From an uncultured Ilumatobacter sp. (GTDB lineage Bacteria; Actinomycetota; Acidimicrobiia; Acidimicrobiales; Ilumatobacteraceae), in assembly GCA_938044705.1 (NCBI GenBank), contig CALIOL010000071.1, forward strand, positions 1 to 44,817: a stretch of 44,817 nucleotides of DNA, read 5' to 3'. Positions 6,779-29,628 of the stretch are shown piece by piece. The translations under genes were made by a program, and so were the position numbers. The notes beneath the pieces are model-generated. The model worked only from the letters and a program-made list of their open reading frames with translations, was not told the origin of the DNA and did not search any database. Numbering within the stretch: position 1 is the stretch's first letter; every line of letters starts with the position of its first letter.

Positions 6779-7264
6779 TCAGAGCCGGTCGAGCCCGAAC
6801 CACGGCTCGGCTGCCAGATCTCCTTCGAAGACCGCCCGGTCCTGCGCATCGGCGACGGTCGCGCTCCGCGCCAGTTCATACGCGAGGGATGCCTCTTCTC
6901 GGCGACGCAGACACGCGAGTGCTCGTGCCCTTGCCTCGTGCGCGTAGGCGGCGTCGAAGTCTGCGGCGAGCGGCCCGGCCTGCTCGACGAACTGCAGCGA
7001 CCGTTCGGCGTACCTCAACGCCAACTCGCCGTGACCGAGTACGGAGTGCGCACGCGAGATCAACCATGCGGCGCGTGCCGAGTTCACGACGGTTGCTCCG
7101 GTTGCACGTTTCCAGTGGTACGCCGCTGCGTACGCACGCTGCAGCAACTCGTCTGCGTCGTCAGGCGTGTGGTCACGCCCGTCGAGGTACTCCCAGGTGG
7201 AGTTGTTGGCAGCGATGGCGAGCGCTCGGTGCTCGTCGCCGGTCGCAGCCGTCGGATCAGCCAC
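6779..7264 (-). CDS. Small all-helical TPR-like protein, unknown function
   Basis: This 161-residue protein starts at GTG (VADPTAATGDEHRALAI) and overlaps the end of the GH36 gene by 8 nt, so it is probably translated with it. It is almost entirely helical, with alanine-rich repeats such as LLQRAYAAAYHWKRATG, LGHGELALRYAERSL and ACLRRREEASLAYELA that look like two or three degenerate TPR units. There is no signal peptide or catalytic motif. I do not recognise a named family. Position suggests a cytosolic accessory protein expressed with the galactosidase, but this is inference from linkage only. Confidence 0.62.
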   Translation of the reverse strand: MADPTAATGDEHRALAIAANNSTWEYLDGRDHTPDDADELLQRAYAAAYHWKRATGATVVNSARAAWLISRAHSVLGHGELALRYAERSLQFVEQAGPLAADFDAAYAHEARARALACLRRREEASLAYELARSATVADAQDRAVFEGDLAAEPWFGLDRL

Positions 7265-9392: not shown

Positions 9393-9438
9393 CGACTTCC
9401 TCTGGAACCAGGACGTGACGCTATCTGCGCTTGCAGCG

Positions 9439-11301: not shown

Positions 11302-11354
11302 CCCGCGAGTCTGGCCGCTCGACGTCGCCGTGCCACATCGCCGACGCTCGACGT

Positions 11355-12170
11355 TCAGCAGGCCAACATGCCTCCGTCGACGGCGAGCGCATGCCCCGTC
11401 GTGAACGACGACGCGTCCGAACACAACCACAGGGCTGCGTCGGCGATCTCACTCGGCTCTCCGAAGCGTTCGAACTTGCTCAGCCGCTTCGCGACAGCGG
11501 CGGGCTCCCCACCACGCCGATCCATCGCCTGGCGCAGCATCGGTGTGTCGATCGCTCCCGGACAGATCGCATTCACGCGAATTCCGTGTTGTGCGTAGTC
11601 CATGGCCGCACTGCGGGTCAGGCCGAGCACTGCGTGCTTGCTCGCCGTGTACGCGGGCTGATCATGTTGGGGTCTGAAGGAGTTCGTCGATGCGATGTTG
11701 ACAATCGATGCGCCGTGCCCGGCCCGGACGTCGGCCGTGGCGGCCATGGCACGGAGCTCGTGCTTCATCGACAAGAAGACGCCGCGCACGTTGACCGCCA
11801 TCATGGTGTCGAAGTCGTCATCGGCGCAGTCCGCCAACGGCACCGTCTCGAACTCGATCGCCGCCGCGTTCACTGCACAGTCGAGCCGACCGTGGAGCGA
11901 CACGGCTTCCGCCACGACAGCCGCCACCGAGGTTGCGTCGGCGACGTCCGCCGGGACGAAGGTCACGGTTCCTGGCGCCGCTGCGGTGAGCGCAAGAAGT
12001 TCGTCAGCGTGTCGGTCGTCGCGATCGGTTGCCACGACGTTGACGCCGGCCCCAGCCAGTGCTGCGGTGATCGACCGACCCATCCCTCCGGTCGCTCCTG
12101 TCACGACGCCCGCACGGCCATCGAGTCCGGCAACGTGGCTCTGGGATTGCTGATTCGTCGGCTCGGTCAT
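11355..12170 (-). CDS. SDR-family oxidoreductase
   Basis: This is a classical short-chain dehydrogenase/reductase of 271 residues. It has the NAD(P)-binding TGATGGMG motif (~24-31), a VNAAA version of the NNAG motif, the catalytic Ser in NIASTNSF, and YTASK. The acidic residue after beta-2 (ATDRDD) favours NAD over NADP. Near the C-terminus ICPGAIDTPM and TGHALAVDGGM are typical of the 3-ketoacyl-reductase-like group. The substrate cannot be assigned. It is divergent from the phosphofructokinase gene across a ~105-nt gap. Confidence 0.88.
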   Translation of the reverse strand: MTEPTNQQSQSHVAGLDGRAGVVTGATGGMGRSITAALAGAGVNVVATDRDDRHADELLALTAAAPGTVTFVPADVADATSVAAVVAEAVSLHGRLDCAVNAAAIEFETVPLADCADDDFDTMMAVNVRGVFLSMKHELRAMAATADVRAGHGASIVNIASTNSFRPQHDQPAYTASKHAVLGLTRSAAMDYAQHGIRVNAICPGAIDTPMLRQAMDRRGGEPAAVAKRLSKFERFGEPSEIADAALWLCSDASSFTTGHALAVDGGMLAC

Positions 12171-12243
12171 GGCCTTGACTGTTGCACAGGCCCTGCGCCA
12201 GTTGTCGAGGCGCAGCGTGGTGGATCCATCGGTTCATCAGCGC

Positions 12244-12256
12244 CATCACGGTGATG
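12244..12256. promoter_or_regulatory. Inverted repeat CATCAC-G-GTGATG upstream of phosphofructokinase gene
   Basis: A 13-nt perfect inverted repeat with one central base lies 21 nt upstream of the phosphofructokinase ATG, in the gap shared with the divergent SDR gene. Flanking TCATC and GATGA extend the symmetry imperfectly. It could be an operator or form a small hairpin in the 5' leader. No consensus for a named regulator is recognised. Confidence 0.3.
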
Positions 12257-12277
12257 AGATGACATACGTTTGGCGCC

Positions 12278-13390
12278 ATGGCCGACATTCGAAGAGTTGC
12301 AATCAGCACGGGCGGCGGAGACGCACCCGGCCTCAATGCGGTCATCCGATCGGCGACCCTGGCGTCGCTGAACCGTGGCTGGGAGGTCGCGGGCATCAGG
12401 GACGGGTACAACGGCCTCCTGTTTCCGGAGAACTATCCGGACGGCGGGGTCGTCAACCTCGAACGAGAATCGGTGCGCGGGATCACCCACCTCGGCGGGA
12501 CGATCATCGGCTCCACCAACCGCGGCAACCCCACCGCCTATCCGGTCCAACAGGCCGACGGCTCCTGGGTCGAGGTCGATCGCACCCACGAACTCCTGGG
12601 CCGGTTCGACGAGCACGGCATCGACGCGCTGATCACCGTGGGCGGCGACGGTTCGCTCACGATCGGCAATCATCTTCATCGCCATGGCCTTCGCGTCGTC
12701 GGCGTCCCCAAGACGATCGACAACGACCTCGACAAGACGACCGCGACGTTCGGCTTCGACACGGCGGTGGGTTTCGCCACCGAGTGCATCGACCGGCTCT
12801 TCGCAACCGCGACATCGCACGGACGGGTGATCGTCGTCGAGGTCATGGGACGCTACGCCGGGTGGATTGCGCTGCATGCCGGAATGGCGGCCGGCGCTCA
12901 CTCCATTCTGATTCCCGAGATCCCGTACGAGCTCGCTCCGGTTGCCGAGACGATCCAGCAGCGAGAAGCGCGCGGCGCGAAGTTCTCCATCGTCGTGGTT
13001 GCCGAGGGAGCGGCCCCTGTCGCGGGAGAGGTGTCGGTAAAGGGCAAGGCCGTCGGGCAGGCGGAACAGCTCGGGGGCGTCGGCGCAACGGTGGCTGCCG
13101 AGCTCGAACGGCTGACCGGCAAGGAGGCCCGCACGGTCGTGCTCGGCCACCTGCTGCGCGGCGGTTCGCCGACGTCGCTCGATCGCTTGCTCGGCTTGCG
13201 GTTCGGCGCCGCCGCTGTGCGAGCACTCGACGAAGGCCACGACGGGGTGATGGTCGCCCTCAACCCTCCGGCGGTCACGTACGTGCCGTTGGCCGAAGCA
13301 ACCGACCAGATGAAGACGGTTCCGCCGGACTGCGACACGATCCTCACAGCAAGGGACCTCGGCATCAACTTCGGGGATCAGATGCCCTGA
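12278..13390 (+). CDS. 6-phosphofructokinase (ATP- or PPi-dependent, PfkA family)
   Basis: This enzyme phosphorylates fructose 6-phosphate. The 370-residue length and motifs fit the PfkA superfamily: STGGGDAPGLNAVIR (phosphate donor loop), GGDGSL (~122-127), the catalytic PKTIDNDL (Asp148) and MGRYAGW for substrate. The donor is uncertain. Gly in GGDGS is the ATP-type residue (PPi enzymes usually have GGDDS), whereas Lys in PKTIDND is shared with the PPi-dependent and mixed clades. The Gly/Lys pair is usually read as ATP-dependent. No allosteric C-terminal extension is present. The gene has its own upstream region with an inverted repeat. It could take products of the nearby sugar genes into glycolysis. 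Confidence 0.9.
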   Translation: MADIRRVAISTGGGDAPGLNAVIRSATLASLNRGWEVAGIRDGYNGLLFPENYPDGGVVNLERESVRGITHLGGTIIGSTNRGNPTAYPVQQADGSWVEVDRTHELLGRFDEHGIDALITVGGDGSLTIGNHLHRHGLRVVGVPKTIDNDLDKTTATFGFDTAVGFATECIDRLFATATSHGRVIVVEVMGRYAGWIALHAGMAAGAHSILIPEIPYELAPVAETIQQREARGAKFSIVVVAEGAAPVAGEVSVKGKAVGQAEQLGGVGATVAAELERLTGKEARTVVLGHLLRGGSPTSLDRLLGLRFGAAAVRALDEGHDGVMVALNPPAVTYVPLAEATDQMKTVPPDCDTILTARDLGINFGDQMP

Positions 13391-13442
13391 CGCAACCGAG
13401 ATTCGGCGCCGTCACGCCGCTCGGACCTCGTACGATTCCAGC

Positions 13443-13898
13443 GTGGAGATGCAGCTGTTCGACGAGGTCGGCGAGCTGGTACGGACGATGGCCCCCGACG
13501 AGCTCGGGGACGTTCAGATGCGCAGCCATCGCCGGGGACTCAAGGTCTGGTTCGGGCCGACGTCCCCGATCAAGGAGCACTACGAAGCACAACTGATTCC
13601 TCGGCGGCACGTCGATCGAACCGATGGGCTCGCGTTGGAAATCGGATTCCACGCCGAGCACAAAGATGAGACCGAGAATGACGCCGTGATCGGGGTGCTG
13701 CTCGCGGCGAAGAAGCGTTGGCAGCGCGAGCTCGGTGCCGAGGCGGAGTCAGGTGCGTTTCTCGGCAACGACGGCTGGCGGCGAATCAGCGACATCTGGC
13801 TCGAACCGGACCTGGACGACCCGGAGCTCGGCTTCGAGATCGCCAGCCGGCTCGTGGACTACCTGACGACGCTCGAACCAATCCGCCAGTCGCGCTGA
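13443..13898 (+). CDS. Conserved hypothetical protein, cytosolic
   Basis: I do not recognise this 151-residue protein. It has a GTG start (VEMQLFDEVGELV), with an ATG two codons in as an alternative. It is mixed alpha/beta and very rich in Glu, Asp and Arg, with a central IKEHYEAQLIPRRHV stretch and a WLEPDLDD segment, and it has no membrane segment or cysteine. The segment after residue 35 (VWFGPTSPIKEHYEAQ) looks like an antiparallel beta region. It is 52 nt downstream of the phosphofructokinase gene on the same strand and convergent with the GH4 gene (7 nt). Coding is supported by codon-position GC bias and lack of a better competing frame. Confidence 0.66.
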   Translation: MEMQLFDEVGELVRTMAPDELGDVQMRSHRRGLKVWFGPTSPIKEHYEAQLIPRRHVDRTDGLALEIGFHAEHKDETENDAVIGVLLAAKKRWQRELGAEAESGAFLGNDGWRRISDIWLEPDLDDPELGFEIASRLVDYLTTLEPIRQSR

Positions 13899-13905
13899 GC
13901 TCCGG

Positions 13906-15297
13906 TCAGGCCCGGAAGGTCTCAGGGATGTAGTCGCCGTGGGACTCGAGCATCGTGTCGACAAGCGCCCAGATCTGCTCGAGATCGAGTTCGGCTGCAG
14001 TGTGCGGGTCGAACATCGCGGCATGGTAGATGTGCTCGCGATCTCCCGTCATCAACGCTTCCACGGTGAGTGAGTGCACGTTGATGTTCGTCTGCATCAT
14101 CGCGGCGAGCTGAGGAGGGATCGACCCGATCGTGGTGGGTTGGATGCCGTTGTGGTCGACGAGGCATGGCACTTCGACACACGATTCCGTCGGCAGGTTC
14201 GAGATCAACGTCGACCCGCTCCCTGACTGATCGTTCATCACGTTGCCGTAGACGACGGTCGGTTCACCGGTCTCGATCGCCTTGATGATCGACGCTCCGT
14301 ACTCGACCGACGGGTTGACGTCGATCGTGGAGTCCGGGTCCTCCATCTCGTCGCGAAGATCTTCCCATCCTGCGATCTGGCGTTCGCAACGGACCGGGTA
14401 CTCATCGAGCGGAACACCGAACTTTTCAATGAGGTCGGGGCGGTCACGCTTGATGAAGTACGGCGTGTACTCGGCAAAGTGCTCGCTCGACTCGGTGACG
14501 AAGTATCCGAGCCGCTGGAACATCTCGTACCGAACCGCGTCGGGCAGACCACTCGCTGCGCCGTCGTCACGCGTCGGGTCGCCGCGGTCAGGGATGTTGC
14601 CCGCTGCTGCGAACTCAGCGATTGCTGGGTAGAGGTCTTCCACTGTCCCGTCGGCGAGACGACGCTCGAACTCGAGGTAGAAGGCCATGTGGTTGATCCC
14701 CGCACAGCGGTATCGCACCTCGGAAGCGGGCACGCCGATGTCGCCGGCGAGCTGCTCGGACGTGTGCTGCACGCTGTGGCACAGCCCGATCCTCGAGATG
14801 TTCGACTGCGGTGACGCAGCTCGCGCCAGCGACCACATGTTGATCGACATCGGATTGACGTACTGAAGCAGCGTTGCGTCGTCGCACAACTCCTCCATGT
14901 CGGCTTGCATGTCGAGCAGTACCGGCACGGTGCGAAGCGCTCGCATGATGCCGCCGATGCCGAGCGTGTCGGCAATGGTCTGACGGAGTCCGAACTGCTT
15001 GGGCACTTCGAAGTCGACGACGGTCGACGGCTCGTATCCGCCGACTTGGAACATCGTGATGACGTGGTCGGCACCGTCGAGCGCGACTCGTCGGTCGGTC
15101 GTGGCAGTGATGGTCGGCATGGCCCCCACCGCAGCAGCGGTCTTCCCGGCGACGATCTCCGACGTGTGCAGTCGCTCATCGTCGATGTCGAACAGCGAGA
15201 TCTCCGACTCCGCGAGTTCAGGAATGGAGAGGATGTCACCGAGCAGATTCTTGGCAAAGACGGTGCTGCCCGCACCGACGAACGTGATCTTGGTCAT
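13906..15297 (-). CDS. melA: GH4 family alpha-galactosidase/alpha-glucosidase
   Basis: GH4 enzymes cleave glycosides by an oxidation-elimination mechanism using NAD+ and a divalent metal, and are cytosolic. The 463-residue chain has an N-terminal Rossmann motif (ITFVGAGSTVFAKNLL). The metal ligands are Cys173 in GLCHSVQ and His203 in GINHMAF. The CHS form at this position is typical of the MelA/AglA subgroup acting on non-phosphorylated alpha-glycosides, rather than the 6-phospho-beta type. The ATG overlaps the stop of the ATPase gene by 1 nt (TGATG), so it is the last gene of the sugar-uptake operon and probably acts on the imported sugar. Choice between galactoside and glucoside is not settled by sequence. 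Confidence 0.88.
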   Translation of the reverse strand: MTKITFVGAGSTVFAKNLLGDILSIPELAESEISLFDIDDERLHTSEIVAGKTAAAVGAMPTITATTDRRVALDGADHVITMFQVGGYEPSTVVDFEVPKQFGLRQTIADTLGIGGIMRALRTVPVLLDMQADMEELCDDATLLQYVNPMSINMWSLARAASPQSNISRIGLCHSVQHTSEQLAGDIGVPASEVRYRCAGINHMAFYLEFERRLADGTVEDLYPAIAEFAAAGNIPDRGDPTRDDGAASGLPDAVRYEMFQRLGYFVTESSEHFAEYTPYFIKRDRPDLIEKFGVPLDEYPVRCERQIAGWEDLRDEMEDPDSTIDVNPSVEYGASIIKAIETGEPTVVYGNVMNDQSGSGSTLISNLPTESCVEVPCLVDHNGIQPTTIGSIPPQLAAMMQTNINVHSLTVEALMTGDREHIYHAAMFDPHTAAELDLEQIWALVDTMLESHGDYIPETFRA

Positions 15298-16463
15298 CAG
15301 ATCTTGTTCCCTGTGGCGATGTCGAAGAAGTGCAGACGATTGGTGTCGATCGACACCTCGATCGGCTGACCTTGCTTCACGGTTGAGTGCGGGCTGAAGC
15401 GAGCGACGACGGCGTGCGCGTCGTCATCGCCGCCTGTGAGGTCTTCCATGTCCGGGTCGGTCGAGTCCATCGGTCGCACGCCGATGTCGAGGTGCGTCAC
15501 GATCTCCGAGCCGAGCGATTCGAGCAACACCGGCGTGCCGGTGATCCTCGCCTCGTACTGTGGGGCGAGCGCTGCGTCGTACATGTCGTCGGGGCGGACA
15601 CCCACCGCGATCGTCTGTCCGACCTTGTCGGGCAGTGACGGGTGCGCAGCCAACACCGCTGCAGGGACGGGCACGGTGTTGGGTCCCAGGTGCACAGCGA
15701 CTTCGCCGTCGAGGTTGCTGACCGATCCTTCGAACAGATTCATGGCTGGTGAGCCGATGAAGCCGGCGACGAACATGTTCGCAGGGTTCGAGTACAGGTT
15801 GGCTGGCGTGTCTGCCTGCTGAAGGACGCCGTCCTTCAACACGACGACGCGGTCGCCCATGGTCATGGCTTCGACCTGGTCATGGGTGACGTAGATCGTC
15901 GTGATGCCGAGGTCCTGTTGAATGCGGGCGATCTCGGTGCGCATGTACACGCGGAGCTTGGCGTCGAGGTTCGAGAGCGGCTCGTCCATCAAGAACACCT
16001 TGGGCGAACGAATCAGCGCTCGGCCCATCGCCACGCGCTGGCGTTGACCACCGGACAGGTTTCCGGGCTTGCGGTCGAGGTATTCCTCGAGCTGGAGGAC
16101 TTTCGCCGTCGATTGGACCCGTTCGGCGATCTCCGCTTTGGACACGCCTGCGATCTTGAGTGGGTACGCCATGTTCTTCCCGACGGACATGTGCGGGTAC
16201 AGCGCGTAGTTCTGGAACACCATGGCGATGTCTCGGTTCTGCGGCGAGACATTGGTCATCTCTTCATCGGCGATGTGCAGACCGCCCTTCGTGATGGATT
16301 CGAGACCGGCGACCATGCGCAACGCCGTCGACTTGCCGCAACCCGACGGACCGACGAAGACGACGAACTCGCCTTCGTTGATATCCAGGCTGAGACCGTC
16401 GACGGCTGGCTCGTCGCTGCCCGCGTAGACCTTGGTCAATCCTCTGAGGGATACGTAGCTCAT
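15297..16463 (-). CDS. Sugar ABC transporter ATP-binding protein (MsmK/UgpC type)
   Basis: This is the ATPase that energises a carbohydrate importer. The 388-residue chain has Walker [10 protein letters not shown] (38-46), the Q-loop, signature LSGGQRQR (~136-143), Walker B VFLMDEP (156-162) followed by LSNLDAKLR, and switch His194 in YVTHDQ. The C-terminal 150 residues form the regulatory TOBE/OB domain seen in MalK/MsmK, including GVRPDDM. An AGGAG Shine-Dalgarno is well placed before the ATG. It belongs with the two permeases and solute-binding protein upstream, and such ATPases often serve more than one importer. Confidence 0.96.
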
Positions 16464-16500
16464 GTTGTGCTCCTGGGTTGTTCGATTCGTGAGAGTTGGG

Positions 16501-16521
16501 CGCCTGAGATGACGTCAGGCG
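16501..16521 (-). other. 7-bp hairpin between the membrane-protein gene and the ATPase gene
   Basis: CGCCTGA and TCAGGCG form a perfect 7-bp stem around a 7-nt loop in the 97-nt gap inside the sugar operon. No U-tract follows on the transcribed strand, so it is not a normal intrinsic terminator. It may stabilise the upstream mRNA or lower expression of the last two genes. Function is inferred only from position. Confidence 0.35.
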
Positions 16522-16560
16522 GACGTGGGTGCGAAGACGCAGTGGTCACTGGCGACCGGT

Positions 16561-17040
16561 TCATTCCGACCACCCCATCGGCAGCCCGACGGCGCGTGCC
16601 AGTCGGTCGGGGATCCACGGGTAGTCGAAGGCGTCGAACTTGATGGCGCGGATGGTGCGACTCAGCACGATCATCAACCAGTTGACCAGGCCGACGATGA
16701 AGATGAGCAGGGCCACGGGGAAGAGAAACGCCATCGGAGAGATCCAGTTGCCCGCCTGCGTGCCGAGCCATCCGAGTCCCACCAGCAGCCCGGACCCGAT
16801 GGCGAATGCCACGGCCGAGCGAAAGCCGCGAGGCAGGCCGCGGCCTGCTGCTCGCATGACCATCGCGACCACGACCGGGCCCACCGGGAACAAGAACGCA
16901 ATCCAGCCGAGTGGCTTACCGACCGCAGCGGTCGCCAGGATCGCGACGACGAGCGGCGAGACGTGTGTTGCGACATCCCAACCGCGAGTGGTGGGCCGAC
17001 GTTTGGCGGTCGTGGTGTGGTTCGTCACGGCACTACTCAT
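16561..17040 (-). CDS. Small multipass membrane protein in the sugar operon
   Basis: This is a 159-residue protein with a short charged N-terminus (SSAVTNHTTTAKRRPTTR) and three to four hydrophobic segments (about residues 30-46, 48-66, 76-94 and 100-125). It ends in a soluble tail containing FDAFDYPWIPDRLARAVG. It resembles the DUF4870-type membrane proteins in outline only, and I do not assign a family. Its ATG overlaps the stop of the FG-GAP lipoprotein gene by 4 nt (ATGA), so the two are translationally coupled and may work together, for instance by anchoring or exposing the lipoprotein. That is inference from gene order. Confidence 0.7.
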   Translation of the reverse strand: MSSAVTNHTTTAKRRPTTRGWDVATHVSPLVVAILATAAVGKPLGWIAFLFPVGPVVVAMVMRAAGRGLPRGFRSAVAFAIGSGLLVGLGWLGTQAGNWISPMAFLFPVALLIFIVGLVNWLMIVLSRTIRAIKFDAFDYPWIPDRLARAVGLPMGWSE

Positions 17041-18782
17041 TCCGCCTCCGTGGTCGCCGTACCCGTTGCACGCTCGACCCGAACGGTGTTCCCCGCTGCG
17101 AGATCGTCGATTGACGTGACGGCTCCATCGGGCCAGCGCACCGTTGCCGTGAGGGCGACGTCACTGGACCCGAGGCCCACGTGCACTTGGGTGGCGCTGG
17201 TCGAGATATACCCCCGCGCGCCTGTGATGAGGCCGGTTCGGGTCGTGGCGTCGTCGTCGCTCGCGGTCACCGTGACCGTGGCACCGAGGGCATCGATGTT
17301 CTGCGTCCCCGACCAGATCGGCTCGACGATCACCGACGAACCAGCGCACAGCTGATTCTCCCAGAGCGTCGAGGGGACACCGAGGTTGTTGATCACGATG
17401 TCGAGGTCACCGTCGCCGTCGAGATCAGCCTGAGCCATTCCGCGTCCGCCGTCGGTCGATGCGAGCTCCCAACCGGGCATCGGCTCGAACGGTCCGCCGG
17501 TATTGCGGAACACCTGGTTGGGCTCCACGAGTTCTCCGTCGGGCAGCATGTCGAAGATGCTGACGGCCTGCATGCCGTTGACGACGTAGAGATCGACCAG
17601 CCCGTCGTTGTCGAGGTCGCCGAGCAGGCCCGCCCAACTCCAGCCGGTTGCTTCGACACCGAGGTCAACGGCATTCTCGGTGTACCCGTCGTCGCCAGCG
17701 ATCTGCACGACGTTGCGGGGATGTTGCACCTCATCGATGCGGGCCTGTTCGATGTCGGCCTCGACGGACTCCCAGACGTCGTCGGGCTCACCGGGAAGTC
17801 GAGCCATGTCGGTGCTGACGAGGTCGACGTCACCGTCGTTGTCGATGTCGGCCAGGTCGAGACTCATCGTCGACAGGCTCGTGACGTCGAACAGCTCGGT
17901 GACCGTCAGGCCGTCCACGCCGGGCAGGTCAGCGCTGGCGAGCCAGACACGATCGGGGGTGCCGAGGTCGTTGCCGACGACGACGTCGTCCAGACCATCA
18001 CCGTCGATGTCGACGACCATCGTGGCGAGTGCTTGCGCCGAGTCGGTGAGGAACTCGGTGGCGACGCCCGAGGCCAGCGTGTCCGCGGTGGGTTGGAGCA
18101 CAGCGACTCCGACGTCGGTCCCGGTGAGGACGCGACTGTCGCGATTCTGCGTGAGTTCGGCGTTGTACGACCCGGTCACGACGTCGAGCGTCCCGTCGCC
18201 GTCGAGGTCGCCCGGTGCCATCGAGAACGCGACGACCCGGCTGCGCACCTCTGCGCGCTCGAAGGAGCGAGCGCCGTCGTGCAAGAACGCGATGGGTGGG
18301 CCGATGGCGGTCGAGAGCAGCAGGTCGCGGTCGCCGTCGTCATCGACGTCTGCGGCGATCGCTTGGCGAAACCGGCCGGTGTCGAGCACTGCGCGCTCGA
18401 AGGTCGGGGGTTCGCCGGGTTCCGTCGAGTTCCAGAAAATGCTGGTCTCGCCGGTGAGGTTCGGGAGGACGAGGTCGATTCGGCCGTCGTCGTCGAGGTC
18501 GTCGGCAAAGACGCCGGCGCCGGTGCCGTCGACCATGGCACCGACGTCGCCGCGTGGGGCGGTGGTGTGATCGAGCTCGTGGCGCACGAAGACGCCTGAG
18601 CATGCCGAAGCGGCATGCGGTGTGATGCTCACGATTGCGTCGACTGTGTTCGTCGAAGGCATCTCGGTGGTCCCCTGATTTCCCCCAGAATCGGGGTCGC
18701 CCGCACCGCAAGCGGCGAGGACGACCCCGATGATTACTGCGGCGATGAGTGGTCGCACGGCACGAGCAGTGCGATCAAACAT
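17037..18782 (-). CDS. FG-GAP/VCBS-repeat lipoprotein with C-terminal ASPIC/UnbV domain
   Basis: This is a 581-residue surface protein. The signal peptide ends in lipobox VLAAC (Cys25). Seven calcium-binding DxDxDG-type blades follow at roughly 95, 146, 192, 258, 313, 388 and 453 (for example DLDGDGTLDVV, DIDNDGDVDLV), which is the pattern of an integrin-like seven-bladed beta-propeller. The last ~85 residues (DALGATVTV ... GARGYISTSATQVHVGLG ... VRWPDGA) match the ASPIC/UnbV domain of the CRTAC1-like family. Such proteins bind Ca2+ and probably carbohydrate or protein ligands, but no reaction is known. It sits between the solute-binding protein and ATPase genes of a sugar importer, which is unusual. 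A GTG one codon upstream is an alternative start. Confidence 0.88.
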   Translation of the reverse strand: MFDRTARAVRPLIAAVIIGVVLAACGAGDPDSGGNQGTTEMPSTNTVDAIVSITPHAASACSGVFVRHELDHTTAPRGDVGAMVDGTGAGVFADDLDDDGRIDLVLPNLTGETSIFWNSTEPGEPPTFERAVLDTGRFRQAIAADVDDDGDRDLLLSTAIGPPIAFLHDGARSFERAEVRSRVVAFSMAPGDLDGDGTLDVVTGSYNAELTQNRDSRVLTGTDVGVAVLQPTADTLASGVATEFLTDSAQALATMVVDIDGDGLDDVVVGNDLGTPDRVWLASADLPGVDGLTVTELFDVTSLSTMSLDLADIDNDGDVDLVSTDMARLPGEPDDVWESVEADIEQARIDEVQHPRNVVQIAGDDGYTENAVDLGVEATGWSWAGLLGDLDNDGLVDLYVVNGMQAVSIFDMLPDGELVEPNQVFRNTGGPFEPMPGWELASTDGGRGMAQADLDGDGDLDIVINNLGVPSTLWENQLCAGSSVIVEPIWSGTQNIDALGATVTVTASDDDATTRTGLITGARGYISTSATQVHVGLGSSDVALTATVRWPDGAVTSIDDLAAGNTVRVERATGTATTEAE

Positions 18783-18802
18783 CACGGTTCAGCTATCGAA
18801 GA

Positions 18803-20254
18803 TCAACCAGCGATGAGCTCGTTGATCTCGGCGTTGGCATCGACGATCACCGAGGTGTCGGCTTCGCCACGCATCACCGAGTCGATCGCGTTGCCCATGA
18901 TCGTCTGGATGTCAGCACCCTCGATGGTGATCGGGAACAGGAAGGTCGTGCCTTCGTCCACGTGCACCGTGAAGGCTTCGACGTTCACGCCGTTGGCCGC
19001 GTGGGCCTCCTGCGCGATCGCCGTTGCCGACGGAATCGCCGGGAACACGACAGCGCCGCCGCCGATGATCTCCTGGCACTCGGCCGACGCCATGTACTTG
19101 ACCCACTCGAATGCTTCGTCCGGGTTCGGCGAAGCGGTCGTGATCGAGTCAGCGAGGCCGTTGTACATCGATGCACGTGAGCCGGACGGGCCAACAGGTG
19201 TCGGCACGAACGAGCCGGCCACACCGTCGGTGGACGTCCAGGTGCCGATCTTCCACGAGCCGTCGGTCATCGTTGCGGCGGTGCCGTCAGCGAAGATCGT
19301 GTCAGCGCCGGAACCCGAAAGGGTCTCGGAGTCGGGCATGTAGCCCTTCTCCACCAGCGTGGCCCACCACGCGATGGTGTCGGTGAACAGCGCGTCGTCG
19401 TAGAAGTACTCGCTGCCCCACGGGTTGGAGTCGAGGTACTCCCAGCCGGTGCCGCCGGCGAAGGCGCTCCAGCCGGTCTGGCTGTACGCATCGGCGTACG
19501 GCGTGTTCGACACGTAACCGTAGGTGGCGACGCTGCTGGCGTCGAAGCCCTCCTCGTTGCCGCGAACACCATTGGTGTCGACCGAGAGCGCCGCGATGGC
19601 TGCTTCGAAGCTGCCGCCGTCTTCCGGGTTCCAGTCGAGGTCGCCGAGGTCATCGGTCGTCAGGCCGGAACCTTCGAGAAGGTTCTCGTTGACCACGAGT
19701 GCGACCGTGTCGAAGTCCTTCGGGAGTCCGTAACGGTCCCCGTTCGGAGCGATCCACAGTTCTGCGAGACCTTCCCAGTAGATGTCGGTCGGGACGCTGT
19801 CGCGCTCGATCAGCTCGTTGAGCGGAAGGAGCACACCGGAGTCCACGAAGCCCGGGTACTGAGCGAGGTGGTTGGTGAACACGTCCGGGACGTCGCCGGT
19901 GGCGAAGCCAGCGGTGATGCCGTCCCAGTAGTCGCCCCAGCCGAACTGGGTGATCTCGACCGTGATGTTCGGGTTGGCAGCGGTGAAGTTGTCCGCGCAC
20001 TCCTGGTAGAAGGGCTGCTGGTTGTTGTCCCAGAGCCAGTACGAGATGTTCACGGCATCTCCGGAGGCCTCTGCGCTCTCTTCTTCGGCTTCTTCCGATT
20101 CCGCTTCTTCGGTTTCGGCTTCTTCGGTTTCGGCTTCTTCGCTTGATGCTTCTTCGCCGCTGTCGTCGGCTGCGTCGTCGCTACCACCGCATGCTGCGGC
20201 GACCATCGACAACGCAACGAGACTGGCAGCAACGCGTGCTGTCTGCTTCTTCAC
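18803..20254 (-). CDS. Sugar ABC transporter solute-binding lipoprotein
   Basis: This is the extracytoplasmic receptor of the importer (483 residues, solute-binding family 1, MalE/UgpB type). The GTG start has a strong AAGGGGGAA Shine-Dalgarno. The signal peptide ends in AAACGG with lipid-attachment Cys22. It is followed by a flexible, very acidic linker (~26-65) of repeated EEAET/EEAES units before the ligand-binding lobes start at VNISYWLWDNNQQPFY. Family traits are FxxxNPNITVEI, DVFTNHLAQYPGF, TDGSWKIGTW and SASECQE-like hinge segments. The ligand is probably an alpha-linked di- or oligosaccharide, judged from the GH4 gene in the same operon. Confidence 0.95.
   Translation of the reverse strand: MKKQTARVAASLVALSMVAAACGGSDDAADDSGEEASSEEAETEEAETEEAESEEAEEESAEASGDAVNISYWLWDNNQQPFYQECADNFTAANPNITVEITQFGWGDYWDGITAGFATGDVPDVFTNHLAQYPGFVDSGVLLPLNELIERDSVPTDIYWEGLAELWIAPNGDRYGLPKDFDTVALVVNENLLEGSGLTTDDLGDLDWNPEDGGSFEAAIAALSVDTNGVRGNEEGFDASSVATYGYVSNTPYADAYSQTGWSAFAGGTGWEYLDSNPWGSEYFYDDALFTDTIAWWATLVEKGYMPDSETLSGSGADTIFADGTAATMTDGSWKIGTWTSTDGVAGSFVPTPVGPSGSRASMYNGLADSITTASPNPDEAFEWVKYMASAECQEIIGGGAVVFPAIPSATAIAQEAHAANGVNVEAFTVHVDEGTTFLFPITIEGADIQTIMGNAIDSVMRGEADTSVIVDANAEINELIAG
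20080..20141. repeat. 15-bp tandem repeats encoding acidic linker
   Basis: The unit CTTCTTCGGTTTCGG occurs twice exactly (20104-20118, 20119-20133), with a partial third copy after it and diverged copies before it. On the coding (minus) strand each unit gives a five-residue Glu-rich block. It forms the linker that tethers the solute-binding protein to its lipid anchor. Copy number could change by slippage without shifting the frame. Confidence 0.75.
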
Positions 20255-20327
20255 GATGTTTCCCCCTTCAGGAACATGTTGTATTGCTCACCGCAGCCGG
20301 GATGGCAGCGGAGACTGTGTCGGCGAG

Positions 20328-20349
20328 CGACTGGCCTGTTGTGCAGTCG
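20328..20349 (-). other. 6-bp hairpin just after the second permease gene
   Basis: CGACTG and CAGTCG pair across a 10-nt loop, starting 2 nt beyond the permease stop codon and upstream of the solute-binding protein gene. There is no U-tract. Hairpins in this place can help set the higher level of binding protein over permeases. The stem is short, so this is tentative. Confidence 0.25.
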
Positions 20350-20351
20350 AG

Positions 20352-21386
20352 TCACTTGATGCCGGAGAATTGGATGGAGTCGACGACCTTGCGGCCGAGG
20401 AGTGCGAACAACGCCAGAATGGGCGCCCCCGCAATGAACGTGGCGGTCATGAGACCGCTCCAGTCGGGTCGCGTGGTTCCGGGCGTCTGTGCGCGGAAGT
20501 CGTTGAGTGCGACCGTGATGACACTGAGGTTTCGACCAGCCGTGAACGGCCAGAGAAAATCGTTCCATGCGTTCACATACGTGATGAGCGCGAGCGTGAA
20601 GATCGGCGCTGCCGCCATCGGCAAGATGACCTCGAAGAATCGCCGGAGATGTCCAGCGCCGTCGAGCACGGCAGCTTCTTCGACTTCCTTCGAGATGCCG
20701 ATGAAGAACTGCCGGAGGAAGAAGATGGCGAACGGAGTCATCAGGAAGTACGGCGCGGCGAGGCCGGCGTAGGTGCTCGTCCAGCCGGTGGTTTCCGCGG
20801 CCCATGGCAGCCAACCGAGGTCAATCTCGAACAGATACGTGTCGAGCTTGAGATCTCGAACGAGCAACAGGTTCGGAATCAATGCGAAGATCGGCGGCAC
20901 CATCAGCGCCGAGAGGAACAGCGTGAACAGTGCCTCGCGTCCTTTGAACTTGAGGCGAGCGAACGCATACGCCGACATGGAGCAGAAGAAGACCTGGCCG
21001 ACGGTGATGACGGTTGCGACGATGACCGAGTTGATGATCGGTGACCAGATGTTGAAGTTGGTGTCGTTGCCGCCGACTTCGGAGACCTGCTCTTGGAAAT
21101 CTGCTCGTTCCGCAGGGCTCAGCGTGCTCTGATCCGTGAGCACGCGTTCGAAGTTGAACGTGGTGAACTCGGGCGGCAACAGGTTGTCGGTATCGCTGAT
21201 GATCGCCGTGTTGTTCGACAGTGCGGTTCGCAGTGCCCAGTAGACAGGGAAGAGGCTGGCAATCATGAAGACGCCCAGCAAGCCCCAGGCAGCCACGCGG
21301 CCCAACCGGATGCCACCAGACCGACGCTGCACAGCGGGGGCGGTCACAGCGGCGGCCGTGGCGTCTGAAGTAGTCGTCTCGCTCAT
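20352..21386 (-). CDS. Sugar ABC transporter permease (MalG/AraQ type)
   Basis: This is a 344-residue inner-membrane permease with six predicted transmembrane helices, the first at about 30-50 (LGRVAAWGLLGVFMIASLF). The conserved cytoplasmic EAA loop, which docks on the ATPase, is EEAAVLDGAGHLRRFFEVILP. The loop FFCSMSAYAFARLKFKG and the ending DFLWPFTAGRN...ALFALLGRKVVDSIQFSGIK are typical of this family. Its ATG overlaps the stop of the upstream permease gene by 4 nt (ATGA), as expected for stoichiometric production of the two membrane subunits. The ~65-residue periplasmic insert after the first helix is longer than usual. Confidence 0.95.
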   Translation of the reverse strand: MSETTTSDATAAAVTAPAVQRRSGGIRLGRVAAWGLLGVFMIASLFPVYWALRTALSNNTAIISDTDNLLPPEFTTFNFERVLTDQSTLSPAERADFQEQVSEVGGNDTNFNIWSPIINSVIVATVITVGQVFFCSMSAYAFARLKFKGREALFTLFLSALMVPPIFALIPNLLLVRDLKLDTYLFEIDLGWLPWAAETTGWTSTYAGLAAPYFLMTPFAIFFLRQFFIGISKEVEEAAVLDGAGHLRRFFEVILPMAAAPIFTLALITYVNAWNDFLWPFTAGRNLSVITVALNDFRAQTPGTTRPDWSGLMTATFIAGAPILALFALLGRKVVDSIQFSGIK

Positions 21387-23062
21387 GCCAGGTCACTTTC
21401 TCCCGCACGGGAAATTCTCAATTGCAGCAAGGTGATGGCCATCAGGCCCAGCATCAGGATCGTTGCGGCGGCAGCACCTTCGCCGGCCCGGGCACCGAAG
21501 TTGTCGACGAACGACTTGTCGAAGATGTAGAGATACAGAACTCGAGTCGAGTTCAGCGGGTCGCCCGGGCTTCCGCCGAGACCGCCACCGGCGGCCGCAA
21601 CGACATCGAACACCTGGAACGATCCGATCAGACTGATCACCAAAACGAGAGCGAGCACCGGCCGCAGCAGCGGCAGGGTGATGGTGCGGAACATCTTGAA
21701 CTCTGAAGCGCCGTCGAGCGCCGCAGCTTCGTAGAGACTGCTCGGCACGGTCTGGATTCCGGCGAACAACAGGAGCGCCGTGTAGCCCGTGAACTTCCAC
21801 GTGTTGACCATGGCCAACGCCGGAATCGCCCAGCTCGGGTTCGACAAGAACCCGATCGGGTCGATACCGAAGTAGCCGAGCCACTCGTTCACGATGCCGT
21901 TGGTCGGGTCGAGCATGAACAGCCACAGCAGACCGACCATCACGTTCGGCAACAGCCACGGAAGCAGCAGGATCGAGCGGACGAACACGGACTTGGTCAG
22001 GCGATCCATCATCACGGCGACGCCGAGCGCGAGGATCGTCTGGATACCGATATTGATCACGACGTATTTGAGCGTGACCCAGGCTGCGTTACGGAAGAGC
22101 TTGTCGCCCCACACCTCTCGGTAGTTGTCGAGGCCGATCCAGGTGCCTTCGTTCTCGAGCAGCGGAAAGTCCTGGAAGCTGATGCCGATCGCACGGATCG
22201 TCGGCAGCAGGAAGAACATGAAGAAGCCGACGATGCTCGGTAGCAGGAACCAGAACGCGACTCGCCAGCCGTCGTTGAGACCACCGCCGAGCGTGACGCT
22301 GACCTGCTCGGCTTCGCCGGAATATGCCAGCGCCATGATCAATGCCGACACTGCGACACCGATGGTTTGAGTGAGCGTTCCGTCCGCACCAACCAGGAAG
22401 GTCACCAGGACCGTGACGCCGAGGAGTCCGCTGGCGACGACGTCGTCGAGGCCGAACTGGCGGGCCCCGAGGTACACACCGACCGCGACCAACGCTGCGA
22501 ACAGTACGAATCCGACCACCTGGAAGAAGCGTCCGTCGGTGAATTTCCAGAGGAAGAGCGCCAGGGTTGCAGCAGCCGCGACGATTCCCGCGCCGCGAGC
22601 GATGGTCTCGCTGTGTTCTTGCCCTCGTGCGTACACGAGTGCAAGCGCTCCGAGCAGAAGCGGCACGAGCAACACGCCGACCCAGCGAAAGGCTTCGCCC
22701 TCGCCGGACAGACCGAACACGCCGACCGTGACGACGACGGCCGGAAGCCCGACCATCAGCGAACGACCCATCGGGCGAGAACGCAGCGCCTGGACACCGC
22801 CGTACACCATCGCGAGGCCGAACACCAGGAGGAACAGACCAAAGCCGGTGTACTCCGACTCCGGGCGGTTCGACAGGTCGGCGACCGTGTCCGTCGAGAA
22901 CATCAACAGCAGCGCAACCACCGTTGCGAAGATCCCGGACCCCACTCCGAGCGCGCCCGCGGCGGTTAGCGGCAAGGCTGTATTCGCCGGAGGAGAGACC
23001 CCCTCCGTTCGATCGATGACAGATTCAACCGTACTCATGTGTGTGATGTGGCCGATGCGCAC
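21383..23062 (-). CDS. Sugar ABC transporter permease (MalF/UgpA type) with ~265-residue membrane-embedded N-terminal extension
   Basis: Residues ~265-559 form a standard MalF-type permease with the EAA loop EAAALDGASEFKMFRTITLP (~445-464), LPWLLPNVMVGLLW and the usual WKFTGYTALLL segment. The first ~265 residues are unusual, with about eight further hydrophobic helices (near 34-55, 73-92, 103-118, 127-145, 155-172, 180-199, 210-225, 232-248). Typical MalF/UgpA proteins have at most two extra helices. The GTG start given lies 16 nt after AAGGGGG; an ATG at 23038 (MSTVESVIDRTEG) is equally possible. It is the first gene of the operon and its promoter overlaps the palindromic operator. Confidence 0.92.
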   Translation of the reverse strand: MRIGHITHMSTVESVIDRTEGVSPPANTALPLTAAGALGVGSGIFATVVALLLMFSTDTVADLSNRPESEYTGFGLFLLVFGLAMVYGGVQALRSRPMGRSLMVGLPAVVVTVGVFGLSGEGEAFRWVGVLLVPLLLGALALVYARGQEHSETIARGAGIVAAAATLALFLWKFTDGRFFQVVGFVLFAALVAVGVYLGARQFGLDDVVASGLLGVTVLVTFLVGADGTLTQTIGVAVSALIMALAYSGEAEQVSVTLGGGLNDGWRVAFWFLLPSIVGFFMFFLLPTIRAIGISFQDFPLLENEGTWIGLDNYREVWGDKLFRNAAWVTLKYVVINIGIQTILALGVAVMMDRLTKSVFVRSILLLPWLLPNVMVGLLWLFMLDPTNGIVNEWLGYFGIDPIGFLSNPSWAIPALAMVNTWKFTGYTALLLFAGIQTVPSSLYEAAALDGASEFKMFRTITLPLLRPVLALVLVISLIGSFQVFDVVAAAGGGLGGSPGDPLNSTRVLYLYIFDKSFVDNFGARAGEGAAAATILMLGLMAITLLQLRISRAGESDLA

Positions 23063-23101
23063 GCACGGCGACCAACTACCCCCTTCTTCACAACGGTTCG
23101 G

Positions 23102-23131
23102 ACAGTAGTACGCGACCCTCGGTCACGTCAA
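23102..23131 (-). promoter_or_regulatory. Promoter of the sugar-uptake operon
   Basis: On the minus strand TTGACG (complement of 23126-23131) and TACTGT (complement of 23102-23107) are separated by 18 nt. They fit a sigma-70-type -35/-10 pair for the permease gene. The -35 lies inside the 16-bp palindrome, so regulator binding would block RNA polymerase. AAGAAGGGGG follows in the leader as ribosome-binding sequence. Confidence 0.5.
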
Positions 23132-23140
23132 CGTTGACGT
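23125..23140. promoter_or_regulatory. LacI-type operator, perfect 16-bp palindrome ACGTCAACGTTGACGT
   Basis: The palindrome has the central CG and AACGTT core common to LacI/GalR-family operators. It lies in the gap between the lacI-type gene and the divergent sugar operon. It contains a TTGACG box on each strand, so a single bound dimer would cover the -35 regions of both transcription units. Expected behaviour is repression of the sugar operon plus autoregulation, released by a sugar ligand. The palindrome is seen; binding by the adjacent regulator is inferred. Confidence 0.75.
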
Positions 23141-23187
23141 AGTGGCGACGGATATGCTATTTCTCGGCACGGTATGGGGCTGATTCG

Positions 23188-24195
23188 ATGACTGATGTCG
23201 CACGACGAGACGCCACCCGACCGTCGACGCTGCACGATGTGGCAGCGCTCGTGGGGGTCTCACCGAGGACCGTCTCCCGAGTCGTCAACGACCAGGGCGG
23301 CTTCAGCGAAGCCACCCGCGTGCGCGTCATGGACGCGGTGAACGAACTGCGCTACCGACCCAACGTCATGGCACGCGGTCTCATCACGCGCAGGACCAAC
23401 ACGGTGGCATTCATCGCCCCGGTGTTGAACGACCCGTTCTTCCCTGAGGTGGCCGACAGTGTGCAGACGGCGGCGGCAGCATGCGAGCTCACGCTGTTCC
23501 TGGCGATGAGCAAAGGCGACGTCGACGTCGAGCACGATGTGTTGCTTCGCCTCAACGCCCACGCACCGGACGGCGTCATCATCTACCCCGCAGGCGGCGG
23601 CAGCGAACACTTGCTCAGCCATCTCGACCAAGGAATGCGGATGGTCCTGATCGACACGGAGGTCGACCATCCGAACGCGGTCTCGGTCGTCTCGAATCTG
23701 CGCGGTGGCGCCGGACTCGCGGTCGAGCGACTCGTGCAACGCGGCTGCAAGAAGCTGGCGATGATCGCCAGCACGAAGTCCGGGCCGACCCTGCATCGAC
23801 GAGAGTCCGGGTTTCTCGACGCCCTGCCGGCCGGCATGGAACGGATCGTGCAGGCCATCGACCCGACCGTCGAAGGCGGCTACGCAATGGCGTCATCGCT
23901 GATCGAGCAACACCCCGATATCGACGGGATCTTCGCCTACAACGACGTCGTCGCCATCGGGGCGATTCAAGCGCTGCAGGCTTCCGGCCGCTCCGTTCCA
24001 GGCGACGTCGCGATCGTCGGCTGCGACGACATCGAGATGGGGTCAGTGGTGACCCCGGCGCTCACGACGATCCGCATCGACCGAGAACGGCTCGGCAACC
24101 TCGCGGTCAGAGCCCTCGTCGCGCTCGTGGAAGACAAGCCGGTCGATTCACCGAGTGTCCTCGACGTCGAGCTCGTCGTCCGCGAGTCCGGCTGA
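23188..24195 (+). CDS. LacI-family transcriptional regulator
   Basis: This is a 335-residue repressor. Residues ~14-60 are the LacI helix-turn-helix and hinge (TLHDVAALVGVSPRTVSRVVN ... ELRYRPNVMARGL). The rest is a periplasmic-binding-protein-like sensor domain (NTVAFIAPVLNDPFFPEV ... DVAIVGCDDIEMGSVVTPALTTIRID). It is divergent from the sugar importer operon, with the perfect palindromic operator between them, so it is very likely the local regulator responding to the imported sugar or a breakdown product. Possible own promoter: TTGACG (23134-23139) and TATTTC (23158-23163), 18 nt apart. Its last 48 nt overlap the 3' end of the convergent lgt gene. Confidence 0.95.
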   Translation: MTDVARRDATRPSTLHDVAALVGVSPRTVSRVVNDQGGFSEATRVRVMDAVNELRYRPNVMARGLITRRTNTVAFIAPVLNDPFFPEVADSVQTAAAACELTLFLAMSKGDVDVEHDVLLRLNAHAPDGVIIYPAGGGSEHLLSHLDQGMRMVLIDTEVDHPNAVSVVSNLRGGAGLAVERLVQRGCKKLAMIASTKSGPTLHRRESGFLDALPAGMERIVQAIDPTVEGGYAMASSLIEQHPDIDGIFAYNDVVAIGAIQALQASGRSVPGDVAIVGCDDIEMGSVVTPALTTIRIDRERLGNLAVRALVALVEDKPVDSPSVLDVELVVRESG

Positions 24196-27551: not shown

Positions 27552-28376
27552 GTGCAACTCAACCCCCGATACGGCAGCGACCCGATTCTGGAGCTCGACG
27601 GCGATCTGTCGCTGATCGCCGAAGCGACGACCCGACAGAACCGCCGGCTCGGCGCGATGCTCTCCACGCTCACCGAAGAACAGTGGTCGCATCCGACTCG
27701 CTGCTCGGAGTGGGACGTGCGCGATGTGATCGTGCACCTGGGCATCACCAACCAGTTCTGGACGATGTCGGTGACGGCAGGTCTCGCAGGCGACCCGACT
27801 CGATTCTTGGCCAACTTCGACCCGGTGGCTTCCCCACTGGAAATGGGCGCCAACAACGTCGACTCCCCGTCCACGGTGCTCGCAAAGTTTCTCGAGGCAA
27901 GTGACGCGTGGTGCGCGCTGCTGGCTGACATCTCGCCAGAAGGGTGGCACCAGACCGGCGAAGCTCCGCCCGGTCACATCTCGATCGGCGCGGTGGTTCA
28001 TCATGCTCTGTGGGATTCGTGGGTGCACGAGCGCGACATCTTGTTGCCGCTCGGCGAAGCGCCAACGGAAGATCCCGACGAGGTACTGATGAGCCTTCGC
28101 TACGGCGTCGCGCTCGGTTCGACCCTCGCCATTTCTCAAGGCACCGGCCAGACCGGCTCGGTCACCTTCGACGTCGCACAGCCCGACGCTGTTTTCTCGC
28201 TGTCGGTCGGAGAGGTCGCCGTCGTCGAAACGGGAGCAGTCGACGGAGCACCCGTGATCGCGGCCGACGCCGTGCCGCTGCTCGAAGGCATCAGCATGCG
28301 AGCGCCGATGCCGATGACGCCCAGCGAGGACATCGCCTGGGTCTTCGGCGGCCTCAAAGCGGCGTTCGATCAGTAG
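27552..28376 (+). CDS. Mycothiol-dependent maleylpyruvate isomerase-family protein
   Basis: This is a 274-residue DinB-like protein of the mycothiol-dependent maleylpyruvate isomerase family. The four-helix bundle carries likely metal ligands His62 (VIVHLG), Asp155 and His159 (LWDSWVHERDILLPLG), where the characterised isomerase has Glu at the middle position. A C-terminal sterol-carrier-like domain (~170-270) follows. Members often carry out thiol-dependent isomerisation or conjugation with mycothiol as cofactor, but many are uncharacterised. It has a GTG start and follows the acyl-CoA ligase by 41 nt, so the two may be co-transcribed. It ends 31 nt from the convergent selenoprotein gene. 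Confidence 0.83.
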   Translation: MQLNPRYGSDPILELDGDLSLIAEATTRQNRRLGAMLSTLTEEQWSHPTRCSEWDVRDVIVHLGITNQFWTMSVTAGLAGDPTRFLANFDPVASPLEMGANNVDSPSTVLAKFLEASDAWCALLADISPEGWHQTGEAPPGHISIGAVVHHALWDSWVHERDILLPLGEAPTEDPDEVLMSLRYGVALGSTLAISQGTGQTGSVTFDVAQPDAVFSLSVGEVAVVETGAVDGAPVIAADAVPLLEGISMRAPMPMTPSEDIAWVFGGLKAAFDQ

Positions 28377-28407: not shown

Positions 28408-29295
28408 TCAATGGCTTGCGGCCTGGTGCGCGCGACGCGCCTCGCCCGCCTTGGCGAGTTCGGCGCGATTGTGGTCACCGACCGCCATGAACGCGGCGCG
28501 CCACTCGTCGTTGTCCCACCGCTGCGGCGCCTGGACCGTCGTGCGCGGCGCCAGCGCGGTGGCAGCAACTCGAAGTGCGAGGTCGACGATGTCGCGTTGC
28601 ATCTGGACATCCCCCGGCTTGCCGCACGGGTTCCCCAAGGGAAAGTCGACGAAGAGGAACCGAGGTACGCCTGCTTCTTCGACGATGTCGCGGGCGCTGC
28701 CGACGACGACCGTCGTGATACCCGCTTCTTCCAACCGGCGCGCAACCAGACTCACGGTCTGGTGACAGACGGGTCAAAGTGGAACGAGGAGTGCGATGTC
28801 GACCCCGTCTTCAGCACACCAGGCAGCCACCTGGTCGGCGTCGAGACCGGTCTTGCGTTGGCTGTACTCGGTCGGCACGCCGAAGAAACGTTCGTTCAGC
28901 GACCCGATGACACCGCTGTTGGCAAGCGCGCTCAGCGCACCGAGCGGCAGGAACGACTCGGTGTCATCGGTGTGCGTCTCCTGCTTGTCCCAGGACAAAT
29001 CGTCGGTGAACATCCGGTCCGGCGCCTCGGCGACCGGGTGGTGATACACCTCTTTGCCGGTCGCAGGAGCACCCCATGCGGAGTCGTGATGATGGAGAAA
29101 CGACGTCGTCACGACCGCCACTCGGCTGTCTCCGAGGGGTTGTTCCAGCGGCGCGAACGGCACCTCGTCGAACGCCGCCCAGCGGTAGGGCTGCTCGTAT
29201 CCGTGCGCCTCGTAGTACTCGCGCGACTTGTCGATGTAGCTCACGAAACTGCGCCGTTCGAGTTGTCGATCGGCCTTCTTGGCAGCACCTGTCAT
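28408..29295 (-). CDS. Probable selenoprotein: GrdB-like glycine/sarcosine/betaine reductase family protein, Sec174 at in-frame TGA
   Basis: If the TGA at 28776-28774 is read as selenocysteine, one continuous 295-residue frame results. Homology-like sequence is unbroken across it: ...VDIALLVPL-U-PVCHQTVSLVARR... The residue falls in a U-P-V-C redox motif (Sec174, Cys177), where family relatives generally have Cys-x-x-Cys. The first half holds YYExHGYEQPYRWAAFDEVPFAPL and HHHDSAWG...HPVAEAP; the second holds PRFLFVDFPLGNPCGKPGD, all family-typical. A SECIS-like hairpin lies just downstream. Classical GrdB is part of the glycine/betaine reductase of anaerobes; this shorter relative is not that enzyme and its substrate is unknown. 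A ferredoxin gene ends 15 nt upstream. Translated conventionally it would appear as two ORFs (173 and 115 residues). A real nonsense mutation is possible but fits less well. Confidence 0.85.
28745..28763 (-). promoter_or_regulatory. Candidate bacterial SECIS hairpin
   Basis: On the mRNA strand, ten nt after the UGA, ACCAGAC and GUCUGGU form a perfect 7-bp stem with loop CGUGA. The loop begins 17 nt after UGA and has G at its second position. Both fit the general bacterial SECIS description (hairpin directly downstream, loop about 16-37 nt from UGA, G in the first two loop positions). The right arm uses AGT and GTT codons where this GC-rich genome would favour AGC and GTC/GTG, as if pairing constrained codon choice. 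Binding by SelB is inferred. Confidence 0.7.
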
Positions 29296-29310: not shown

Positions 29311-29628
29311 CTAGTACGGGTCGTCGTCCGACTTCGGAAGCGCCCACCACTCGTCGGGCACCTCGGCTGGCGTCCAGTCGGGATTCGGATGGATGCAGTC
29401 CACGGGGCATGCAGGCAGGCACTTGTCGCAGCCACTACACAGCTCGGGAATGATCACGACATCCGGTCCATGGTTGAAGATGGCACCGAACGTCGGAGGG
29501 CATGCGCGGAGACAGGCATCGCAATTGATGCAGTCGAGCATGTCGATCCACAGCGGCGGGTTCTGCCACTTCTCGTTTCGGACCCGACCTTCGATCCGCT
29601 CGTCGCGCGTGGTCGCCTCGCCGCTCAT
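29311..29628 (-). CDS. Ferredoxin with two [4Fe-4S]-type cysteine motifs
   Basis: This is a 105-residue electron carrier with two clusters of cysteines, CINCDACLRACP (~33-44) and CSGCDKCLPACP followed by VDCIHP (~64-80), each in the CxxCxxCxxxCP arrangement. Extra residues at both ends (~30 N-terminal, ~25 C-terminal, Trp/Asp-rich) distinguish it from minimal bacterial ferredoxins. AGGGTGA precedes the ATG. It lies 15 nt upstream of the selenoprotein gene on the same strand and is probably its electron donor, which is inference from operon structure. The only gap before it is 50 nt after the HD-GYP gene. Confidence 0.94.
   Translation of the reverse strand: MSGEATTRDERIEGRVRNEKWQNPPLWIDMLDCINCDACLRACPPTFGAIFNHGPDVVIIPELCSGCDKCLPACPVDCIHPNPDWTPAEVPDEWWALPKSDDDPY

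Follow-up and report, generated by a model that had tools for sequence, protein, structure and literature searches.

The locus examined here raises two questions: whether an in-frame TGA within a gene of an uncultured Ilumatobacter sp. is read as selenocysteine (Sec), and what kind of enzyme the resulting protein would be. The window, meaning the whole stretch of DNA that was analysed, comprises the 44,817 nucleotides of contig CALIOL010000071.1 (C71) of assembly GCA_938044705.1, a genome of 3.88 Mb in 369 contigs that is 82% complete. On its minus strand, the frame 29295-28408 translates as 173 codons, a TGA at 28776-28774, 121 further codons and a terminal TGA, bearing out the single in-frame TGA inside an otherwise open frame that the initial annotation had described. 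The features on which the argument turns are these:

28408..29295 (-): predicted selenoprotein gene, 295 residues, Sec at position 174, type A (UPVCHQT).
28774..28776 (-): UGA codon, predicted from homologue comparison to be read as selenocysteine (Sec174).
28762..28776 (-): U-P-V-C-H motif; position 174 (Sec/Cys) and Cys177 are kept in types A, A' and B, PrdB and GrdF.
28745..28763 (-): SECIS-like hairpin, 7-bp stem ACCAGAC/GUCUGGU with loop CGUGA.
29311..29628 (-): 4Fe-4S ferredoxin-like gene, 15 bp upstream of the selenoprotein gene; a possible, non-conserved partner.

A search of the window's genome for selA, selB, selC and selD, the gene set expected of a bacterium that makes selenoproteins, recovered all four: selA and selB lie adjacent to each other, the tRNA-Sec has the anticodon TCA, and selD (L025:1501-2421, G000:C215) contains an in-frame TGA of its own, within AGUGCK. 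Two superfamily paralogues in the same genome have their TGA at the corresponding codon, within TPVUPLCTRT, and together with the selD TGA the superfamily genes bring the selenoproteins predicted in this genome to at least four. These paralogues (L002, G000:C49; L003, G000:C89) are of type B, with UPLCTRT and a longer C-terminal part, a type that is common in a sample of 200 genomes of the window organism's family, while a third type, A' (UPVCHQS; L035, L037), occurs in one genus of that family. Across the family sample, selA matched in 52 of the 53 genomes with such a gene (three of the 52 below the cut-off) versus 100 of the 147 without one (Fisher p 1e-6, genomes being counted as independent of kinship). 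Among carrier genomes, 49 of 50 have selA, the exception being the one with the Cys form L135; selA is kept in the genome of another Cys form, L129.

The residue at the TGA position was followed through homologues gathered by a scan of one genome per species over 84,980 species. The best 80 of 115 loci comprised 78 with TGA, two with Cys (L129 and L135) and none with any other residue, a count that may be biased since the motif itself formed part of one of the two scan patterns, so that homologues with other residues at the site could be under-sampled. The TGA site is shared by all seven close orthologues aligned with the window protein, and a homologue stopping at this codon was looked for and not found among the loci examined, where U or C alone occupied the site. 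In the family sample, 53 of 200 genomes gave 68 matches, 66 of them with exactly one TGA; one of the remaining two is a fragment ending before the codon, and the other (G011:C22), a weak match of 54 residues spanning codon 174, was rejected as a true family member, since by eye it looks like a regulator of another kind that begins with a DNA-binding part. Reading 32 superfamily loci placed the TGA inside the UPxC motif in 31, the 32nd being the same truncated fragment. Four Cys forms were seen in total (L129, L135, L136 and L137, with CPVCHQ or CPICHQ), and the further Cys relatives lie on plasmids of Roseomonas (L136) and Haematobacter. The earlier statement that the TGA stands where relatives have the first Cys of CPxCHQ thus holds in that such relatives exist, but they are a minority among the fetched homologues. 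Overall, the in-frame UGA is conserved with only Cys as its substitute, as in bacterial selenoproteins. The Cys form on the Roseomonas plasmid adjoins a gene for SelO, a family that has Sec members elsewhere.

Directly after the UGA lies the hairpin (28763-28745), with 17 nt from the UGA to the loop; its presence at SECIS distance had been noted from the window alone, and it proved to be conserved across TGA homologues. Since the protein sequence at the hairpin is conserved, the null model picked synonymous codons at random according to the codon usage of the gene concerned, and all six tested pairs were Watson-Crick in 79% of 63 distinct TGA sequences, compared with 1.8% expected. These 63 were drawn from 67 distinct sequences, four lying outside the codon table and the type B row L036 being left out; five genomes are present twice in the rows, a duplication that the count of distinct sequences removes. 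Only three of the six pairs are kept in 2 of 88 TGA rows, and the full hairpin occurs in none of the four Cys forms seen, two of which keep three pairs, one four and L135 five. Paired synonymous changes from CAG..CTG to CAA..TTG are seen in L065, L107 and L133, with L123 as an exception in which the CAA/CTG pair is broken. By eye, types A' and B also have a hairpin in roughly this position, with a different sequence. The free energy of the window hairpin is ordinary (z -1.35; 22 of 200 shuffles fold as well), so its support is comparative, and an Rfam search gave nothing meaningful near the gene.

The codons beyond the TGA evolve like those before it, under protein-level constraint: relative to I. 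nonamiensis (L056), 39 synonymous and 25 nonsynonymous changes fall in 120 codons after the TGA, and 52 and 37, respectively, in the 173 codons before it. It is very unlikely that the in-frame TGA arose from a sequencing error or by chance. With selC and selB present, only U or C at the site and a conserved hairpin, the insertion of Sec proposed in the initial annotation is strongly supported, and the assignment of TGA 28776-28774 to selenocysteine has the best support that sequence alone can give. By every sequence test but folding energy, which is neutral, the window gene behaves as a real selenoprotein.

What family this protein belongs to is answered by profile comparison. Its best NCBIfam model is PrdB (TIGR04483), at 82.4 bits against a cut-off of 300, followed at lower scores by the GrdF, GrdH and then GrdB models; TIGR01918 gives 29 bits vs 65.45, below the GrdB threshold. 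No Pfam model, PF07355 included, matches the window protein at E 0.01, whereas PF07355 is matched at that level by 37 of the 54 aligned members, and the PrdB and GrdF models by all 54. Significant profile similarity and the shared UxxC site make the protein a member of the GrdB/PrdB superfamily. The label "GrdB-like" therefore stands at the superfamily level, but the nearest known family is PrdB, far below whose cut-off the protein falls. GrdB, GrdF and GrdH (PF07355, TIGR01917/01918, NF040794/5) belong to the same superfamily, although their profiles are 431-435 long and the window protein has 295 residues. With PrdB, the selenoprotein subunit of D-proline reductase, it shares the UxxCH motif, a similar core and framework residues: D103 (present in 89% of type A), D111, P117, position 174, Cys177, E189, R212, P219 and G221 are common to types A, A' and B, PrdB and GrdF.

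An AlphaFold2 model of the window protein, built with 54 homologues (pLDDT 91, pTM 0.89), places residue 174 between a strand (167-171) and a helix (175-190). A search of solved folds with this model gave no match at E 0.001, the best, a phage neck protein (E 0.0039, TM 0.29), being taken as chance, and a sequence search against solved structures returned nothing significant (best E 0.94). For want of a significantly similar solved fold, the chemistry is reasoned from what holds for PrdB and GrdB. We consider that the gene probably encodes a genuine selenoprotein of a stand-alone UPxC lineage within the GrdB/PrdB superfamily, recycled by thiols and distinct from the amino-acid-fermenting reductases. 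Given the machinery and the hairpin, SelB would deliver Sec-tRNA(Sec) at UGA codon 174, aided by the downstream hairpin, and Sec174, which in the predicted model sits just after a beta strand and at the start of a helix, would most likely attack, as the nucleophile, a small substrate at an electrophilic carbon or heteroatom. Cys177 would then resolve the intermediate, yielding a selenenyl sulfide, and recycling would fall to a glutaredoxin-like protein or another cellular thiol system, mycothiol being a plausible reductant for the window protein.

In one clade of 11 loci, nine have a glutaredoxin-like gene shortly after the selenoprotein gene, the Cys form L135 among them; PF00462 was shown for the L125 copy only. 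This clade spans Pseudomonadota, Myxococcota, Thermodesulfobacteriota, Hydrogenedentota and Rokuibacteriota (support 90/98, not starred). No such gene was found in the other 69 of the 80 loci, three of which have fewer than 600 bases downstream. This neighbour, the UxxC at a modelled strand-helix junction, and a wide distribution with varied neighbours are also what one would expect if the protein were a general thiol/selenol redox protein, a disulfide or peroxide reductase on a GrdB-derived fold that cleaves no substrate. Beyond the UxxC, however, R25, Y28, Y37, W39, R212, W260 and W265 are invariant in the 54 aligned members, which suggests a specific pocket, and the framework held in common with PrdB and GrdF speaks in the same direction. 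We regard such a general redox role as possible but unlikely; it overlaps in part with the substrate-cleaving selenoenzyme proposed above, and the likelihoods of the readings thus do not sum to one.

Anaerobes that ferment amino acids are the main known source of GrdB and PrdB, both of which act together with partner subunits; PF09338 is the subunit family that goes with glycine, sarcosine and proline reductases. If the window protein were a true subunit B of D-proline (or glycine/betaine) reductase, its partner subunit must have been missed. PF09338 is over the cut-off in none of the 200 family genomes (one weak match lies below it), and no such gene was found in the window's genome, which is 82% complete. 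The only carrier among 50 to have it is the Rokubacteria genome with L131 (L152, G247; 272.7 bits); the search recovered it in 5 of 5 positive-control records with PrdB, PrdB-like or GrdF genes. GrdA, found in its positive-control record, was detected in none of the 49 carriers tested and is absent from the window's genome. Neither the PrdA-type partner of PrdB nor the GrdA partner of GrdB was thus found in the genome of the window gene. Many carrier genomes are incomplete drafts, so that single absences are weak, yet the missing partner genes (PF09338, GrdA) support the earlier suspicion that this is probably a different enzyme.

The motif and the tree bear on the same point. U/C-G-T-C is the motif of all five PrdB or PrdB-like rows and of the GrdF row, and U/C-P-x-C that of types A, A' and B; the PrdB rows read UGTC (CGTC in one PrdB-like row), three of them being annotated near prdA, while the window protein reads UPVC. 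A tree built on 112 rows divides the rows of PrdB type and GrdF from those of types A, A' and B and of the Cys forms (support 100/93), at a node where the single GrdF row is very long and where the tree program warned that long branches meet. A reductase subunit B is thus favoured by PrdB being the best NCBIfam match, by the 54 of 54 members that match the PrdB and GrdF models, by the framework from D103 to R212 common to PrdB and GrdF, and by a proline racemase-like gene adjoining the locus in one Ilumatobacter (L059). It is opposed by a score of 82 bits where 300 is required, by the PF09338 subunit missing from 49 of 50 carriers in a search whose positive controls were found, by UPxC in place of UGTC, and by the confinement of a proline racemase relative to 1 of 80 loci; on this balance we hold it to be highly improbable. 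The window lineage is distinct and should not be called GrdB or PrdB.

The stand-alone selenoenzyme proposed here would need neither a GrdE/PrdA-type subunit nor GrdA, in which it would differ from glycine, sarcosine, betaine and D-proline reductases, and is for that reason probably not an amino-acid-fermenting reductase; with no GrdE/PrdA-type subunit to hold an amine, its substrate may need no such activation. A likeness can be drawn with FarB, the GrdB homologue of fluoroacetate reductase, whose GrdB-type Sec is proposed to attack a C-F bond (PMC10838667); we make no claim of dehalogenation here. FarB has a GrdE-like partner, FarE, is predicted to feed GrdA and comes from an anaerobe, in all of which it differs from the window lineage. 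The same paper states that the cysteines for pyruvoyl formation are missing from FarE and that no Schiff base can form with fluoroacetate, its authors inferring that an amine is the preferred substrate (PMC10838667). In two reviews, PrdB and GrdB are presented as amino-acid reductases or appear in lists (PMC13188914, PMC9312934).

The notion that the TGA is a true stop, whether through overlapping genes, a pseudogene or plain read-through, can draw on TGA being also the terminal codon of the gene, but is practically negligible in view of TGA in 78 and Cys in the other 2 of the best 80 of 115 homologues, protein-level constraint on the codons that follow, and a full hairpin in TGA forms and in 0 of 4 Cys forms.

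The lineage of the window protein extends over SAR324, Chloroflexota, Acidimicrobiia (Actinomycetota) and Pseudomonadota. In the tallies given by the Sargasso Sea survey, PrdB is a UxxC selenoprotein that, with 42 sequences, ranks among the most abundant (PMC1088965), and the GOS survey likewise gives 235 sequences, again among the most abundant (PMC2398784); in the same tallies, GrdA and GrdB are rare in both the Sargasso Sea (1 and 1) and GOS (1 and 5) (PMC1088965, PMC2398784). The survey "PrdB" has UxxC as the window lineage does, an identity at the sequence level being proposed only, and from the spread of the lineage over these four groups we propose that many of the marine-survey "PrdB" sequences are of the UPxC type. 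A broader version of this idea, on which we are evenly divided, is that types A, A' and B form a large partner-free UPxC class in Actinomycetota, Chloroflexota, SAR324 and Pseudomonadota, thiol-recycled and substrate-cleaving, and that the marine "proline reductase" selenoproteins are this class and not D-proline reductase. If the marine proposal is true, it would give a reason why a "proline reductase" ranks among the commonest selenoproteins of marine surveys.

The initial annotation had called the protein undescribed-looking, which can be accepted in part. In the open-licence literature, subscription papers being outside its scope, we recognised no description of a stand-alone UPVCHQ selenoprotein; on the other hand, NCBI names two of the Cys forms "glycine/sarcosine/betaine reductase selenoprotein B family protein", and the marine UxxC "PrdB" may be the same lineage. 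The superfamily itself is a known one. A widespread relative that keeps Sec while its genomes lack the partners implies a different reaction. The case also suggests that a family name such as "selenoprotein B family" can be a misleading annotation, and that such proteins would be truncated at the TGA by gene callers that do not allow for Sec.

Around the gene, neighbourhoods called by a simple, rough longest-ORF rule are mostly unconserved, and no widely conserved operon was found outside the glutaredoxin clade. The protein's "own ferredoxin", as it had been termed, does exist, but among eight genomes with a close full-length orthologue it lies near the selenoprotein gene in three, the window's included, is missing from the stretch examined in four, and in one the contig is cut; an obligatory partnership was rejected as a general rule. 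The proline racemase-like gene mentioned above, recognised by eye, separates the ferredoxin gene from the selenoprotein gene in a single Ilumatobacter genome (L059/L141), and its single occurrence led us to reject it as a conserved neighbour. Convergent with the selenoprotein gene, 27552-28376 (+) encodes a mycothiol maleylpyruvate isomerase N-terminal / DinB domain, of which no relative was found beside the seven close orthologues. A PADLOC run gave no match.

Other neighbours are local: a gene of about 450 residues lies upstream in five loci, and a hydrolase-like gene (by eye an alpha/beta hydrolase) lies downstream in ten Acidimicrobiia loci, eight of them nearly identical (L081, L078, L099, L106, L104, L093, L102, L103, L090 and L095). 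Elsewhere in the window, a sugar cluster at 7257-24195 comprises family 36 and family 4 glycoside hydrolases, a solute-binding protein, a permease and a LacI regulator, and within it lies a gene with a vanadium chloroperoxidase-type domain at 9439-11430 (-).
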